Shown here: positions 859 to 48,123 of the stretch, piece by piece
How positions within the stretch are numbered: position 1 is the stretch's first letter
How the letters are laid out: each line of letters opens with the position of its first letter
From: Hormoscilla sp. SP12CHS1
GTDB lineage: Bacteria > Cyanobacteriota > Cyanobacteriia > Cyanobacteriales > Desertifilaceae
Assembly: GCA_014324065.1 (NCBI GenBank)
Contig: JACOMV010000002.1
Coordinates: 1-48,895 of the forward strand
Reading direction: 5' to 3'
DNA: 48,895 bases
Position numbers and translations under genes: made by a program
The notes under the pieces: generated by a model
What the model was told of the DNA's origin: nothing
What the model saw: the letters and a program-made list of their open reading frames with translations, nothing else
The model's database searches: none

Positions 859-994
859 AATATTCTTCCTCTAACAAACTGTACCTCATCAGCGCCGAAT
901 ACGCTATATTCCTTGTCGTCGAATATCCAGAAACAGGGTTTCTTAGTCCTTCTACGTTACGTTCCGAACAGGCCATACGCCCAAGCGCGTTTCC

Positions 995-1105
995 TAGGGA
1001 AGGACTAAAGTCCTTACTACAAACCTACCGCTAGGGAAGGACTAAAGTCCTTACTACAAACCTACGGCTAGGTAAGGACTAAAGTCCTTACTACAAACCT
1101 ACGAT
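995..1105. repeat. Three tandem copies of a 37-bp repeat with palindromic core AAGGACT-AA-AGTCCTT and tail ACTACAAACCTAC
   Basis: Units at 995-1031, 1032-1068, 1069-1105, nearly identical; the last ends a few bp from the rne stop codon. Confidence 0.95.
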
Positions 1106-1108
1106 TCT

Positions 1109-3220
1109 TTATTCAATGGCAGATGAACGACGCCGACGCCGACGCCGAACATCTGGCTCACTCTTGACCTCACTATCGGCATCTTCGGCTTCAGAATCTC
1201 CTTGACCAGTTTCTGATTCCGTGCTTTGCTCCGTAACTATCTCAGAACTAGGCGTTACCTCGGCATTTTCTACCTCGGGCATCTCCCCTGAAGCTACTTC
1301 ATCATCAGTTACAGATTCCTCTATTGCTGGAGCTGATGATGTGATATTCTCATCAGAGCCTGTTTCCATTTCCGTCAAATCTGCTTCACTCCGATCGCTC
1401 TCTGAGGCGGTACTGCGTCCGCTTCGCCCTGGCAGGGTTACGGAAACGATCGCAGATTTAGGATTCTTCACCTCATTGCGGTCCTTTAACATTAGGGGCG
1501 AAATCCCCATCAAGGCATACACATCCTGTTCCAAGGGTGTCATTTCTACTTCTATCACCTGTTTGGGTTCCACCGTAGCTTTATGCAGTTGACGCCTCAG
1601 CCTCGGCGATAACCGTTCCGTAGAAATAGCTTTCTCTTCCCAGTCATCTTTAGCCTCCTGGAATTGGTCATCTTCACGCTCAGAGGCCCGCCTATCCAGC
1701 AACGGCGGTGCGGGAGCTTCTGATTCACCATTCGCCCCGATGCGACGACGACGACGGTTGAGAACCCCACGCTCTTGATAGTTGGGATGATTCGTCAGAT
1801 CTAGTTCTTGTGCATCATAGGCATTGTTCGGAGCCAGTCGGAGGCCAAGATCGGACAAATTCTCCTGAGGGACTCGATCTCCTGGCAAGATAGGTGCCCC
1901 ATTCCCCGCCCGGCGCAGTTCTGGAACTGCTTGGCTAGCTGGCATCGCAGAACGATCGATAATAGCCTGTGGGGAACTCTCAGATTCACCCGGTAGACGC
2001 AGCAAGTGACCTAACCCATTACAACTGGGGCAAGTCTGACCAAAAATCTCGTAAATATTTTGACCTTGGCGCTTGCGAGTCAATTCCACCAAGCCCAGTT
2101 CGGAAAGTTGGGCGATCTGGGGCCTGGCCTTGTCCGCGTTGAGAACCTTATTGAAATGCTCCAGCACTTGCAACTGGTCCCGCCGCGAGTCCATATCAAT
2201 GAAATCGACAACTATCACCCCAGCTATATTCCGCAGGCGCAACTGACGAGCGATTTCCGTTGCCGCTTCGCAGTTCGTCCACAGCACTGTTTCCCTGGCA
2301 GTACTAGACTTGGTGAAGGAACCTGAGTTCACATCAATTACTGTCAGCGCTTCCGTGGGCTCGATGATAATGTAGCCACCTGATGGTAAATCGACTCTGG
2401 GTTTGAGGGCTTCCCGAATCGCCGCATTGACCCGGAAATATTCCAGGATGTTAGCCCTCTCCCGGTGATGGTCAACCAAAATGCCTTGGGGTGCTTTACC
2501 CCCATTCCACATCATGACTTGTTGCTTCACCCGCTTGACGGCGGTCTGGGAGTCCACCACAATGCGATTGACATAACTACTGTACATATCCCGCAGCACC
2601 CGCTGAATAAAATCATCATCGCGATTGAGTAGCGCTGGGGGCTTAGTGGCACTCGCTTCGAGTTGAATAGTTTCCCATTGCTTTTGCAGAAACTCTAAGT
2701 CATCCATGATGGCTTCTTCTGCCATCCCTTCAGCTTCCGTTCTCACTAGCAAACCCATACCCGCAGGTTTGATCAAGATTGCTAGTGCTCTCAAACGGTT
2801 GCGTTCGTTCTCAGAAACAATCCGCCGGGAGAGATTTACACCTCGCCCATAAGGCATCAGCACTAAATAGCGACCGGGCAAGGTAACATTACCTGTCAGC
2901 CGGGGACCTTTGTTTCCCGTCGGCTCTTTCATCACCTGGACTAGGACTTTTTGCTGCGGCATTAATAATTCCGTAATCGCACCGGAGGTCCGCCTTAGTC
3001 GTAAAGGTCCTAAGTCGGTGACATGAATAAATCCATTCCGTTCGGCATCTCCAATGTTCACAAAGGCGGCATCTATTCCAGGCAAGACATTCTCGACAAC
3101 GCCCAGATATATGTCACTTACTTGATGGCTACCCGTAGCCACTACCAGTTCTTGAATTTGATCTGAACTAAATACAGCAGCAAGACGATGCTGCTCAGCG
3201 ATTATGATTTGCTTCGGCAT
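1109..3220 (-). CDS. rne: Ribonuclease E/G
   Basis: 703 aa, MPKQIIIAEQHRLAAVFSSDQIQELVV..., VDFIDMDSRRDQ, C(P)SCNGLGH zinc-link motif, C-terminal RRRRRRRSSAIE as in cyanobacterial RNase E. Confidence 0.96.
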   Translation of the reverse strand: MPKQIIIAEQHRLAAVFSSDQIQELVVATGSHQVSDIYLGVVENVLPGIDAAFVNIGDAERNGFIHVTDLGPLRLRRTSGAITELLMPQQKVLVQVMKEPTGNKGPRLTGNVTLPGRYLVLMPYGRGVNLSRRIVSENERNRLRALAILIKPAGMGLLVRTEAEGMAEEAIMDDLEFLQKQWETIQLEASATKPPALLNRDDDFIQRVLRDMYSSYVNRIVVDSQTAVKRVKQQVMMWNGGKAPQGILVDHHRERANILEYFRVNAAIREALKPRVDLPSGGYIIIEPTEALTVIDVNSGSFTKSSTARETVLWTNCEAATEIARQLRLRNIAGVIVVDFIDMDSRRDQLQVLEHFNKVLNADKARPQIAQLSELGLVELTRKRQGQNIYEIFGQTCPSCNGLGHLLRLPGESESSPQAIIDRSAMPASQAVPELRRAGNGAPILPGDRVPQENLSDLGLRLAPNNAYDAQELDLTNHPNYQERGVLNRRRRRIGANGESEAPAPPLLDRRASEREDDQFQEAKDDWEEKAISTERLSPRLRRQLHKATVEPKQVIEVEMTPLEQDVYALMGISPLMLKDRNEVKNPKSAIVSVTLPGRSGRSTASESDRSEADLTEMETGSDENITSSAPAIEESVTDDEVASGEMPEVENAEVTPSSEIVTEQSTESETGQGDSEAEDADSEVKSEPDVRRRRRRRSSAIE

Positions 3221-30281: not shown

Positions 30282-33200
30282 ATGAATAAACAGCAAATAT
30301 TCAGGATAAATACAATGATGAATAAGGTTCAAAAGCACAGGGCTGCGTGTCCTGCGCGAAAAATAGATCGGGATACAGCAAATGAAACGGAACGAGATGC
30401 TTGTGGGGTGGGTTTAGTGGCTAACCCCCAAGGTGGGGCTCGGCATGATATAATAGTAGAGGCATTGTCGGGTCTGATTTGCATAGAACATCGGGGTGCT
30501 TGTAGTGCAGATAATGATTCCGGTGATGGTGCGGGACTGATGACGGCTATCCCTTGGGAGTTGCTGCAAGCTTGGTTTGCACGGGAACAGTTGGAAATGC
30601 TAGCAAAAGAACGTCTGGCGGTGGGGATGATGTTTCTGCCTCAAGACCCGGCATTGGCTACCAAATCACGGCAGGCGATCTCCGAAATAATTACTTCGGA
30701 AGGGTTGCAGGTGCTGGGATGGCGAGTAGTGCCAACGCGATCGGAGTTACTGGGGGTGCAAGCGCGGGAAAATGAACCTCAAATTGAACAGGTTGTGGTT
30801 GAGTCACCGAACAGTAAGGGGGAAGATCGGGAACGGTTGTTGTATATAATTATGAAGCGGATTAGCAATGGGATTCCTGATTGCTATGTTTGCTCTTTCT
30901 CTAGTCGCCAAATTGTTTACAAGGGCATGGTCAGATCGGCTGTGCTGGGTGAGTTTTATCTGGACTTGAAAAACCCTGCCTATAAGAGTCCCTACGCAAT
31001 TTTCCACCGCCGCTTCAGCACGAATACTATGCCAAAATGGCCCCTGGCTCAGCCCCTACGGATGCTGGGACATAATGGGGAGATTAATACCCTGCTGGGC
31101 AATATTAATTGGATGAAGTCCCGCCAAGGCGATCTTGACAGTGATGTGTGGGGCGATCGCCTCTCGGAACTGCTGCCCATTGTCAATAAGGCCCAGAGTG
31201 ATTCGGCGAATTTGGACAATGTCATGGAGTTGCTGGTGCTATCGGGTCGTTCTCCTACAGAAGCGATGATGATACTGGTGCCGGAAGCTTACAAAAATCA
31301 GCCAGAATTGGCAGATCGTCAGGAAATTGTGGATTTCTATGAATATTACAGCGGCATGCAAGAGCCTTGGGATGGCCCGGCCCTGATCGTTTTCAGTGAC
31401 GGACATACGGTGGGGGCGATGCTGGACCGGAATGGCCTGCGTCCGGCACGCTATTGCATGACTCGCAATGGCTATCTGCTGGTATGTTCGGAAGCAGGAG
31501 CAATTCCTTTACCGACGGCTGATATTGTGGAAAAGGGTCGCTTGGGTCCCGGACAGATGATTGCGGTGGACTTAGAGTCCCATGAGGTGCTGAAAAATTG
31601 GGAGATTAAGCAGCGGGTCGCACGCAAACAGCCCTATGGTGAGTGGCTGAAACGCTACCGTCAAGCCTTACCTGCTGGATCTTTTGTCTCGGGGAAGCAG
31701 ATGGAAACGGCAGATATCCTGCGCCAGCAGATGGCTTTTGGCTATACCTCTGAAGATGTGGAGATGGTAATTCAGGCCATGGCCCAGGCGGGGAAGGAAC
31801 CGACTTTCTGTATGGGAGATGATATTCCTCTAGCGATACTTTCTTCTAAGCCTCATGTCCTCTATGACTATTTTAAGCAGCGCTTTGCTCAGGTCACTAA
31901 TCCCCCGATCGACCCCCTGCGGGAAGGTTTGGTGATGTCTTTGCATATGCTACTGGGTTTTCGGGGAAATTTGTTAGCCGAAAAGCCCGAATTTGCCCGT
32001 CATTTGGAACTGGAAACCCCCGTTCTGAATGAGGCGGAGTTGGAAGGGCTGTTGAATGGTTCTTATTGTGTGGGAAATGGTTCTGCACCAGATGTATTTA
32101 AGGTGGCAACCCTCTCTACTTTGTGGAACCCTCAGGCGGGACCTGATGGTTTGGCAACTGCGGTAGATAAGCTTTGTCAAGAGGCGGCCCAGGCCGTGCG
32201 CGAGGGCGCTGAGATCCTGGTTTTGAGCGATCGCTTTGATGGTCGGGAAAACGCTAAAGCGTTTACTACGAACCCGGAAAACGCTAAAGCGTTTACTACG
32301 AACCCGGAAAACGCTAAAGCGTTTACTACGAACCTTACGAACCTGATGACTTACATTCCGCCGCTGCTAGCTGTGGGTGCGGTTCACAATTATCTCAACC
32401 GGGAGGGTTTGCGCTGTCGGGCATCCATTATTATTGATACGGCCCAATGCTGGAGTACCCATCATTTTGCCTGTTTGATTGGTTACGGGGCTTCTGCTGT
32501 TTGTCCCTACCTGGCCCTGGAAACGGTGCGCCATTGGTGGAGTGACTCCAAGACCCAAAGTATGATGCAGCGCGGCAAGATCCCAGCTATGAGTATGTCC
32601 GAGGCCCAGCAGAATTACCGTAAGGCCATTTGTGCGGGTTTGCTGAAGATTATCTCTAAGAAGGGCATTTCTCTCCTTTCTTCTTACCACGGATCCCAGA
32701 TCTTTGAGGCGATCGGCCTAGGACAGGACTTGTTGGCCCTGGGCTTTACGGGGACGACTTCCCGCCTGAGGGGTCTTTCTGTACGGGAGTTGGCCGAAGA
32801 GGTGATGGCTTTCCACAAGCGGGCTTTCCCAGAACTGACCGTGAAGAAACTGGAGAATTTTGGCTTCGTTCAGTACCGCGTGGGCCTGGAATATCACATG
32901 AATAGCCCGGAAATGGCTAAGGCCCTCCATAAGGCCGTGACTGGTTCGGAATACGACCATTATGAGGTATACAAGCGGCATTTGGCGGAACGCCCGGTGA
33001 CGGCCCTGCGAGATTTACTGGACTTGAAGGGCGATGGCACTTCTATTCCTATTGAAGAGGTAGAACCTGTAGAGGAAATAGTCAAGCGGTTCTGTACCGG
33101 GGGCATGTCTTTGGGATCCCTGTCCCGGGAGGCCCACGAAACCCTGGCCATCGCCATGAACCGCATGGGGGGTAAATCTAATTCTGGTGAAGGTGGGGAG

Positions 33201-35045
33201 GATCCGTTGCGCTTCCGGGTTCTGGATGATGTTGATGTTACAGGAAAAGGTTTGTCCCCGACTTTGCCTCACCTACGGGGTTTGCGGAATGGGGATACGG
33301 CATCGAGTGCCATTAAGCAGGTAGCTTCCGGTCGCTTTGGGGTGACGCCGGAGTACCTGATGAATGGCAAGCAGATTGAAATTAAGATTGCCCAAGGGGC
33401 GAAACCCGGAGAAGGGGGCCAGCTACCGGGCAAGAAGGTGAGTCCCTATATTGCTTCCCTGCGCCGATCGAAACCGGGCGTCCCCCTGATCTCCCCTCCT
33501 CCCCATCACGATATCTATTCGATCGAGGACTTGGCCCAGTTGATTTTTGACCTGCACCAAATTAATCCCCAGGCCAAGGTATCGGTGAAGCTAGTTGCGG
33601 AAATTGGTATTGGCACTGTCGCTGCTGGGGTGGCCAAGGCCAATGCTGATGTTATCCAGATTTCCGGTCACGATGGCGGTACCGGTGCTTCCCCTCTCAG
33701 TTCGATCAAGCATGCGGGTGCGCCTTGGGAGTTGGGCGTGACTGAGGTCCATCAGACCCTGATGCAAAATGGTCTGCGCGATCGGGTTATCCTGCGTACC
33801 GACGGGGGCTTGAAAACTGGTTGGGATGTGATGATAGCGGCCCTGATGGGGGCGGAAGAATATGGTTTTGGTTCCATCTCCATGATCGCGGAGGGCTGCA
33901 TTATGGCCCGGATTTGCCATACCAATAATTGCCCGGTGGGGGTGGCGACTCAGCAGGAAAAACTGCGGAAACGCTTTACGGGTATGCCCGAACATGTGGT
34001 CAATTTCTTCTATTTCGTGGCCCAAGAGGTGCGGCAGTTGTTGGCGCGACTGGGATACCGCAGTCTGAAGGAAATTATCGGTCGGGCGGACCTGCTACAA
34101 GTAAGGGAAGGGGTGCAGTTGACCAAGACTTCGGCCTTAAACTTGAATTGCCTGTTGGAGTTGCCCGATAGCCGTTCTGATCGCAGTTGGCTAAACCATG
34201 AAGATGTTCACAGCAATGGCCCCGTTTTAGATGACCAGTTGCTAGCAGACGCGGACATTCAAAAAGCTATTAGCAACCAAGGTTCTGCGACCAAGCAGTT
34301 GGCAATTGTGAGTACGGACCGGTGCGTCGGGGCCCGCCTGGCAGGGGCGATCGCCAAAAAGTACGGCAACAGCGGTTTTGAAGGCGAGATTAATCTTAAC
34401 TTTACTGGCAGTGCGGGTCAAAGCTTTGGTGCCTTCAATTTATCGGGAATGAAGCCGATCTTAGAAGGAGAAGCGAATGATTATGTGGGCAAAGGGATGC
34501 ATGGTGGGGAAATCGTCATTAAACCGCCAGCAGATGCTCCCTACAACCCAGCGGAAAATGTGATTGTGGGCAATACCTGTCTGTACGGGGCTACTGGGGG
34601 GATCCTGTTCGCGAATGGCACGGCGGGAGAACGGTTTGCCGTGCGCAACTCCATGGGTAAAGCGGTAATTGAAGGCGCTGGGGATCATACCTGCGAGTAC
34701 ATGACTGGCGGTGTAGTTGTAGTCCTGGGTAAGGTGGGACGGAATGTCGCTGCTGGCATGACTGGCGGTATGGGCTATTTCTTGGATGGAGATGGCAGTT
34801 TCCCGGAAAAGGTTAATCTTGAAATTGTCAAGATTCAGCGGGTGTCTTCCCCTGTTGGCCAACGACAACTGCAAGAGTTGATTCAAATGCATCGCGATCG
34901 CACGGGCAGTCAGAAAGCGAAGATGATTTTGGAGAATTGGGAGAAGTTTTTACCTCTATTCTGGCAAGTAGTGCCCCCAAGTGAAGCGGATAGTCCAGAA
35001 GCTACTGCTGAGGCGGTTACCGAAAAAGTTGCTGTGAAGGCGTAG
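30282..35045 (+). CDS. glsF: Glutamate synthase large subunit, probably ferredoxin-dependent (GlsF/GltB type)
   Basis: [12 protein letters not shown]-terminal Cys; [70 protein letters not shown]. No gltD in the window. Confidence 0.95.
32246..32335 (+). repeat. Three tandem copies of a 30-bp palindromic repeat inserted in frame in the glutamate synthase gene
   Basis: GGAAAACGCTAAAGCGTTTACTACGAACCC at 32246-32275 and 32276-32305, third copy (last base T) 32306-32335; encodes ([10 protein letters not shown])n. Confidence 0.97.
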
Positions 35046-35840: not shown

Positions 35841-36029
35841 TTTAAAACCTCAACCGAGAGGTTTAAAACCTCAACCGAGAGGTCCAAAACCCCAACCGAG
35901 AAGTCCAAAACCCCAACCCAGAGGTTTCAAACCCCAACCGAGAGGTCCAAAACCCCAACCGAGAGGTCCAAAACCCCAACCGAGAGGTCCAAAACCCCAA
36001 CCGAGAGGTTTCAAACCCCAACAGTGGGG
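35841..36029. repeat. 21-bp tandem repeat array, about 9 units
   Basis: (T[TC][TC][AC]AAACC[CT]CAACCGAGAGG)n at 35841-36008 plus a degenerate ninth unit. Confidence 0.96.
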
Positions 36030-47337: not shown

Positions 47338-48123
47338 TTGAAATCCGAAACTAGAACTCACGCGCGCACTAAACGAGAACTTTTACCCGATTATTGTTAC
47401 CACGTCACCTCTCGTTGCAACAACCGCGAGTTTAAGCTGACTAATCATAAATGTAAGCAGGTATTCATATATGCCCTCAAAAAGGCTATTGAAAAGTACC
47501 AGTTCAAACTCTATGGACTCTGCATTATGTCCAACCACGTTCATTATCTCCTGGAACCGGCTCTACCAGAAGATTTACCCAAAATCATGCACTGGCTCAA
47601 CTGGTATACCGCCATGTGCTTCAATCGGATGTTAAATCGCACCGGTCATTTCTGGGAGAAGCGCTATTTTAGTGAAGGTTTTCCTAACTCTGATTCCCCA
47701 AGGGTGTTAAATACTCTCCGCTACATTCACGCCAATCCTAAAACTGCTGGGATGCAACAAGGTTTTTTCTATGACTTTTCCAACTATGGATCCTATGCAC
47801 GATTGACCGATGATGGATTGACTCAATGGCATCCTTGTTTTCTGGAACTTGGCTTAACTTTAGATGGTTGTGCTGAAAAATATAAAAGCTTTTGTAGCCG
47901 GTATAAACCCCGGGCTAAGTCCGATCGCCGTTCCCATTGGGGCTGCAATTTCTTGCCAAAGATTCTCAAACTTAAGCCTCAGCAAGAATCAAGAGGGCAG
48001 ATGCTTTTGCCTTGGGTCCAGAGGGCGCAAACTCTCGATCTTGACGATATTGTGACGGCGGCCCTCGATTTTGTCCGTGCTAATAGTTACGCCTATGAAG
48101 TCGCCACCGAAAATTTCTATTAG
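47338..48123 (+). CDS. REP-associated tyrosine transposase (RAYT, Y1_Tnp/TnpA_REP)
   Basis: LLPDYCYHVTSRCNNREF, YGLCIMSNHVHYLLEP (HuH), WYTAMCFNRMLNRTGHFWEKRY, LRYIHANPKTAGM; TTG start in the track. Confidence 0.9.
   Translation: MKSETRTHARTKRELLPDYCYHVTSRCNNREFKLTNHKCKQVFIYALKKAIEKYQFKLYGLCIMSNHVHYLLEPALPEDLPKIMHWLNWYTAMCFNRMLNRTGHFWEKRYFSEGFPNSDSPRVLNTLRYIHANPKTAGMQQGFFYDFSNYGSYARLTDDGLTQWHPCFLELGLTLDGCAEKYKSFCSRYKPRAKSDRRSHWGCNFLPKILKLKPQQESRGQMLLPWVQRAQTLDLDDIVTAALDFVRANSYAYEVATENFY

Follow-up and report, generated by a model that had tools for sequence, protein, structure and literature searches.

The GTAG-tagged REPs represent a known class of repeats that includes the cyanobacterial families GTAG-12, -15, and -16 and whose copies are located both within genes and in the vicinity of stop codons (Di Nocera et al. 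2013, PMC3733652). Among the TnpA_REP proteins, or RAYTs (REP-associated tyrosine transposases), subclass 2.8 was found only in cyanobacteria in the sample of Quentin et al. (2018, PMC6006769); its members have a mean length of 199 residues, an NHYH motif, and a proline-rich N-terminus, and they have GT[AG]G REPs on their flanks, a REP being present within the gene as well in some cases.

The stretch of DNA analyzed here (48,895 nucleotides, hereafter the window) comes from the draft genome of Hormoscilla sp. SP12CHS1, a cyanobacterium of the sponge-symbiont type, and embeds two tandem arrays, one beside rne and one inside gltB (Table 1). According to the data reported below, the two arrays very probably belong to a single GTAG-tagged REP family, which has a dedicated RAYT elsewhere in cyanobacteria and whose Hormoscilla copies behave as orphans. 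The family is well-defined, and it would be new within a known class of mobile repeats.

Table 1. Positions of the two arrays, of their elements, and of the associated genes in the window.
Feature	Position	Strand	Evidence
Whole rne array, 3 x 37 bp, head to tail	994-1103		TRF, 37 bp x 3.0, 97% matches
REP element 1, rne array	1000-1024	- (GTAG tag on rne sense strand)	Exact pattern, 37-bp tandem unit
REP element 2, rne array	1037-1061	-	Exact pattern, 37-bp tandem unit
REP element 3, rne array, closest to the rne stop codon	1074-1098	-	Exact pattern, 37-bp tandem unit
rne (ribonuclease E)	1109-3220	-	ORF; NCBIfam RnaseECyano NF052586, 1017 bits
gltB (glutamate synthase large subunit), insert in central region	30282-35045	+	NF008730, 1726 bits
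Whole gltB array, 3 x 30 bp	32246-32334		TRF, 30 bp x 3.0, 100% matches; in frame
REP element 1 in gltB	32249-32273	- (GTAG tag antisense to gltB)	Exact pattern
REP element 2 in gltB	32279-32303	-	Exact pattern
REP element 3 in gltB	32309-32333	-	Exact pattern

A previous sequence-only reading of this DNA had proposed that the two arrays share the same palindrome architecture. This was confirmed by the arrays retrieved with TRF and by the six exact matches of CTAAAGNNNTTACTACRAACC in the window, three per array, versus 0.1 expected from shuffles. The strand common to both arrays reads AA-NNN-CT-AA-AG-N'N'N'-TT-ACTAC-RAAC, and its complement reads GTTYGTAG-T-AAnnnCT-TT-AGn'n'n'TT. On the latter, the GTAG tag is located one base 5' of a 7-bp stem with a 2-nt loop (AA or TT) and is preceded by GTTY, the core being 25 bp long. 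Since a GTAG tag lies 5' of the palindrome on the opposite strand, the repeat is a REP element; the sequence-only reading missed this tag, which marks a REP whose RAYT partner occurs in other members of the phylum. As expected, one unit of each array folds as single-stranded DNA, at -6.2 and -4.7 kcal/mol for the two arrays.

The two arrays differ in unit length (37 vs. 30 bp), arms, and spacers, and their similarity might therefore be ascribed to chance, the arrays being unrelated. However, a pattern search of the draft genome with CTAAAGNNNTTACTACRAAC (AA loop) retrieved 224 exact copies scattered over many contigs, whereas the reversed control did not retrieve any; moreover, graded complementary arm types connect the rne-array type with the gltB-array type in the set of 97 copies described below. 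These data refute a chance resemblance, to which we assign practically no probability. The version with the TT loop accounts for 81 further exact copies in the same genome, that is, about one quarter of the exact copies.

The same reading had also depicted one hairpin-forming family with interchangeable arms and had proposed collecting its copies genome-wide and checking the covariation of the arms. This analysis was carried out on 97 of the 224 copies, corresponding to 64 independent arrays when one copy per array is taken, and the arms do covary. The three variable base pairs are fully complementary in 84 of the 97 copies and in 56 of the 64 arrays, and the Watson-Crick counts at the three pairs (63, 58, and 63 out of 64) each exceed those of all 2000 shuffles. 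The arms of the rne array (AAGGACT/AGTCCTT) and of the gltB array (AACGCT/AGCGTT) differ, as previously noticed, and within each array they are perfect complements of each other. G-T pairs occupy only two of the 192 variable cells (one copy per array), and this scarcity suggests that the constraint acts on the DNA and not on the RNA.

The element resembles the published GTAG families (PMC3733652) in most of its features: the GTAG tag 0-2 nt 5' of the palindrome, the 2-nt loop, the complementary arm variants, the stem (6-13 bp in the published families, 7 bp here), the small size with high and dispersed copy number (20-40 bp there; a 25-bp core with 224 + 81 copies here), the location next to stop codons and in genes, and the association with a RAYT. 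The main difference concerns the arrangement of neighboring copies. In the SP12CHS1 genome close neighbors, spaced from 28 to 67 bp, are head to tail in 39 cases out of 44, whereas in the published families this arrangement is absent or rare and dimers are mostly inverted, a feature that is common there but does not define the class. Identity with GTAG-15 was excluded, the loop of that family being 9-15 bp long; for GTAG-12 and GTAG-16, the comparison covers the class features listed above (PMC3733652). REPINs likewise consist of short palindromes linked to a RAYT (Bertels and Rainey 2011, PMC3116915), and head-to-head pairs of our element, 37-39 bp apart, do occur in some other genomes (G033 and G104); the Hormoscilla-type neighbors, being mostly head to tail, differ from such inverted pairs.

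In the case of the rne array, the stop codon is located 5 bp beyond the end of the array, in agreement with the few base pairs previously indicated. The sequence-only reading had gone further, proposing that the array would form the rne 3' UTR. More generally, hairpins in this UTR and elsewhere might act at the RNA level, by controlling the stability of mRNAs or their processing by RNase E, the arms covarying for the sake of RNA structure. The array does lie in the 3' flank of rne on the sense strand, it folds as RNA better than shuffles (z = -3.67), and it is kept in Hormoscilla GM7CHS1pb; furthermore, transcription and proximity to stop codons are frequent among published REPs (PMC3733652). 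However, it is not present after rne in Hormoscilla GUM202, although the rne genes share about 97% identity as far as the stop codon, just past which the sequence diverges; the array is therefore not conserved as a part of the rne 3' UTR. The rarity of G-T pairs is also unlike typical RNA covariation, other copies lie within gltB with the tag antisense, no terminator-like or intrinsic terminator site was found at the rne array, and Rfam retrieved only a tRNA from the window, with no match to the repeats. The UTR role thus appears weak, RNase E processing at the array found no support in these data, and we consider an RNA-level function of the family very improbable. In GUM202, different tandem repeats (units like AACAGGGG) replace the REP array after the rne stop codon.

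The gltB array demonstrates that the family sits in coding as well as in intergenic DNA, as previously proposed. The insert splits the Pfam Glu_syn_central match of GltB and reads as a unit repeated three times, in the NAKAFTTN frame. It is in frame in all three Hormoscilla genomes, with three copies in SP12CHS1, three in GUM202 (whose gltB region is nearly identical to that of SP12CHS1), and two in GM7CHS1pb (89% identical). The insert is not present in the readable outgroups, in which this loop has a varying length; in the comparison with the Synechocystis structure, it falls between the residues aligned at positions 606 and 609. A further putative coding case, judged from its translation, is an open frame (locus L063) with matches to glycosyltransferase-9 and TPR, which would harbor two in-frame REP copies (EEALKRLL). 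Palindromic repeats in frame in housekeeping proteins, with about 20-30 encoded residues, are also known from the Rickettsia palindromic elements and from published intragenic REPs; the Rickettsia elements, however, are CGTC-tagged or longer and do not flank a transposase, while the present family is GTAG-tagged and has a RAYT partner in relatives. Two other kinds of repeats were observed in this part of the window: GTAGGGTGGGCACCGCCCACC hairpins, similar to the GTAG repeats of NYRR-type RAYTs, at positions 35042 and 35101, just past gltB, and a separate 21-bp unit (AAAACCCCAACCGAGAGGTCC) repeated 8.5 times at positions 35844-36022.

The partner of the family was found in other cyanobacteria. 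P0005, a RAYT of 199 residues from genome G042 (NCBIfam RAYT NF047646, 96.8 bits vs. a cut-off of 80), is located between REP copies of the same family, and its clade is represented in 14 of the 388 sampled genomes. REP hairpins occur at 12 of the 15 loci of this clade (79 matches in 52 kb) and, according to the identical criterion, at one of the 49 other RAYT loci (one match in 165 kb). At the genome level, hairpins are present in 11 of the 14 genomes with a clade RAYT and in 35 of the 374 without it; within the order, the figures are 10 out of 13 and 34 out of 92 (p = 0.013, genomes being counted without correction for relatedness). Moreover, several RAYT genes of the clade embed an in-frame REP (SAEALTTN), read in the same frame as the gltB insert.

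The alignment of nine clade sequences revealed that NHYH and GYPPHxPPH are invariant or nearly so. Together with the HYH version of the HuH motif, the clade shares with subclass 2.8 (PMC6006769) the proline-rich N-terminus, the length of about 199 residues, the flanking GTAG REPs, and the intragenic REP; it would therefore fit that subclass by its features. Differently from the published subclass, for which long REPs are listed, the elements described here are short single hairpins, and in Hormoscilla the REPs occur without the RAYT. One clade RAYT, on contig G358:C113, has no flanking element, and upstream of its start an open N-terminal frame made of SEAQLRAFR repeats was observed. The canonical RAYTs of the NYRR type were rejected as partners, since the GTAG palindromes on their flanks in REP-rich genomes are of another kind (GTAGGGTGCGTCAGC, for example); at L105-L107, L110, and similar loci, long GTAGGGTGCGTCAGC or GTAGGGTGGGCATTGCCCACC inverted repeats, which represent a different GTAG repeat set, enclose cyanobacterial RAYTs of the NYRR type.

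These data also bear on the possibility that the element is a MITE or the end of another insertion sequence (either of the IS200/IS605 type or a transposon with terminal inverted repeats), its proximity to a RAYT being incidental. The ends of IS200/IS605 elements bear subterminal hairpins too, and a MITE-like insert in one GUM202 element indicates that the lineage harbors active elements of this kind. An incidental proximity, however, is hard to reconcile with hairpins specific to one RAYT clade (12/15 vs. 1/49); the 25-bp unit has neither a second terminal repeat nor any internal sequence, and in the three Hormoscilla genomes no other Y1 gene lies between intact elements. No insertion sequence with the hairpin at both ends was found among the inspected Hormoscilla and REP-rich loci. 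We thus regard this origin as very unlikely and retain a REP family with a RAYT of its own.

The situation in Hormoscilla is different. No RAYT of the P0005 clade was found in SP12CHS1, GUM202, and GM7CHS1pb, though these three genomes are the richest in REP copies (294 and 273 exact AA-loop copies in GUM202 and GM7CHS1pb, respectively), so the flanking of a RAYT by the same element, observed in other cyanobacteria, does not hold within Hormoscilla, where the elements look like orphans. The REP-rich genomes G045, G344, G002, and G119 also lack a close member of the clade, which implies that the RAYT is not required for the present large size of the family. The Y1 transposase of the window (P0001) was rejected as a partner, since no hairpins lie beside it and it is absent or weakly matched in most REP-rich genomes; the remaining Y1 genes in these genomes, none of them bracketed by intact elements, did not provide a candidate either. 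The Y1 (HuH) gene of the window (47338-48123, + strand) codes for 261 residues with an NHVH motif and scores 61.8 bits against the NCBIfam RAYT cut-off of 80; motif and length fit the tail-bearing, REP-free subclass 2.1, and the gene has no intact element beside it.

Ten further element sites of SP12CHS1 were compared with GUM202 and GM7CHS1pb by BLAST, omitting the element from the query. At seven sites one or both sister genomes have an element in the corresponding position; one site has unrelated or degenerate sequence, and two have no paired flanks. No clean empty site was seen among the sister genomes at these ten sites. Two sites differ in copy number, with one, two, and three units at L010 and one unit versus two or more at L012; together with gltB (3/3/2), they reveal the copy-number polymorphism whose mapping had been suggested by the sequence-only reading. 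The loop flips between AA and TT from one genome to another at L012, L029, and gltB, the palindrome being otherwise unchanged. In GUM202, the REP orthologous to that of locus L011 is interrupted by a MITE-like insert about 159 bp long, whose ends are inverted (AGTTGCTACCTA...TAGGTAGCAACTT).

The following scenario can be depicted. The RAYT would have spread the element after recognizing, in single-stranded DNA, both its hairpin and its GTAG tag; because it is the hairpin that matters and not the arm sequence, the arms would change as complementary pairs only. The RAYT would then have been lost in the Hormoscilla lineage, where most of the elements occupy sites shared among genomes and vary in head-to-tail copy number and by AA/TT loop flips, the probable present mode of change being slippage, or else template switching, at the hairpin. 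Copies persist beside stop codons and, where the frame remains open, within proteins such as GltB. As a tentative and rather doubtful extension, the Hormoscilla REPs might persist without any transposase, hairpin-driven slippage or template switching multiplying the units head to tail, flipping the loops, and keeping the arms complementary; this would make them a fast-changing, RAYT-independent repeat, able also to diversify loops in proteins, GltB among them.

The strong positional specificity by which a repeat abundant in cyanobacteria is linked to a single RAYT clade provides a defined RAYT-REP pair for biochemistry, and the gltB insert shows that a whole genus tolerates an in-frame REP in an enzyme of central metabolism. 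Lastly, Hormoscilla offers a natural example in which no RAYT was detected despite a large REP family, and in which RAYT-dependent spread can be separated from the RAYT-independent dynamics of the palindromes, that is, copy number and loop flips.
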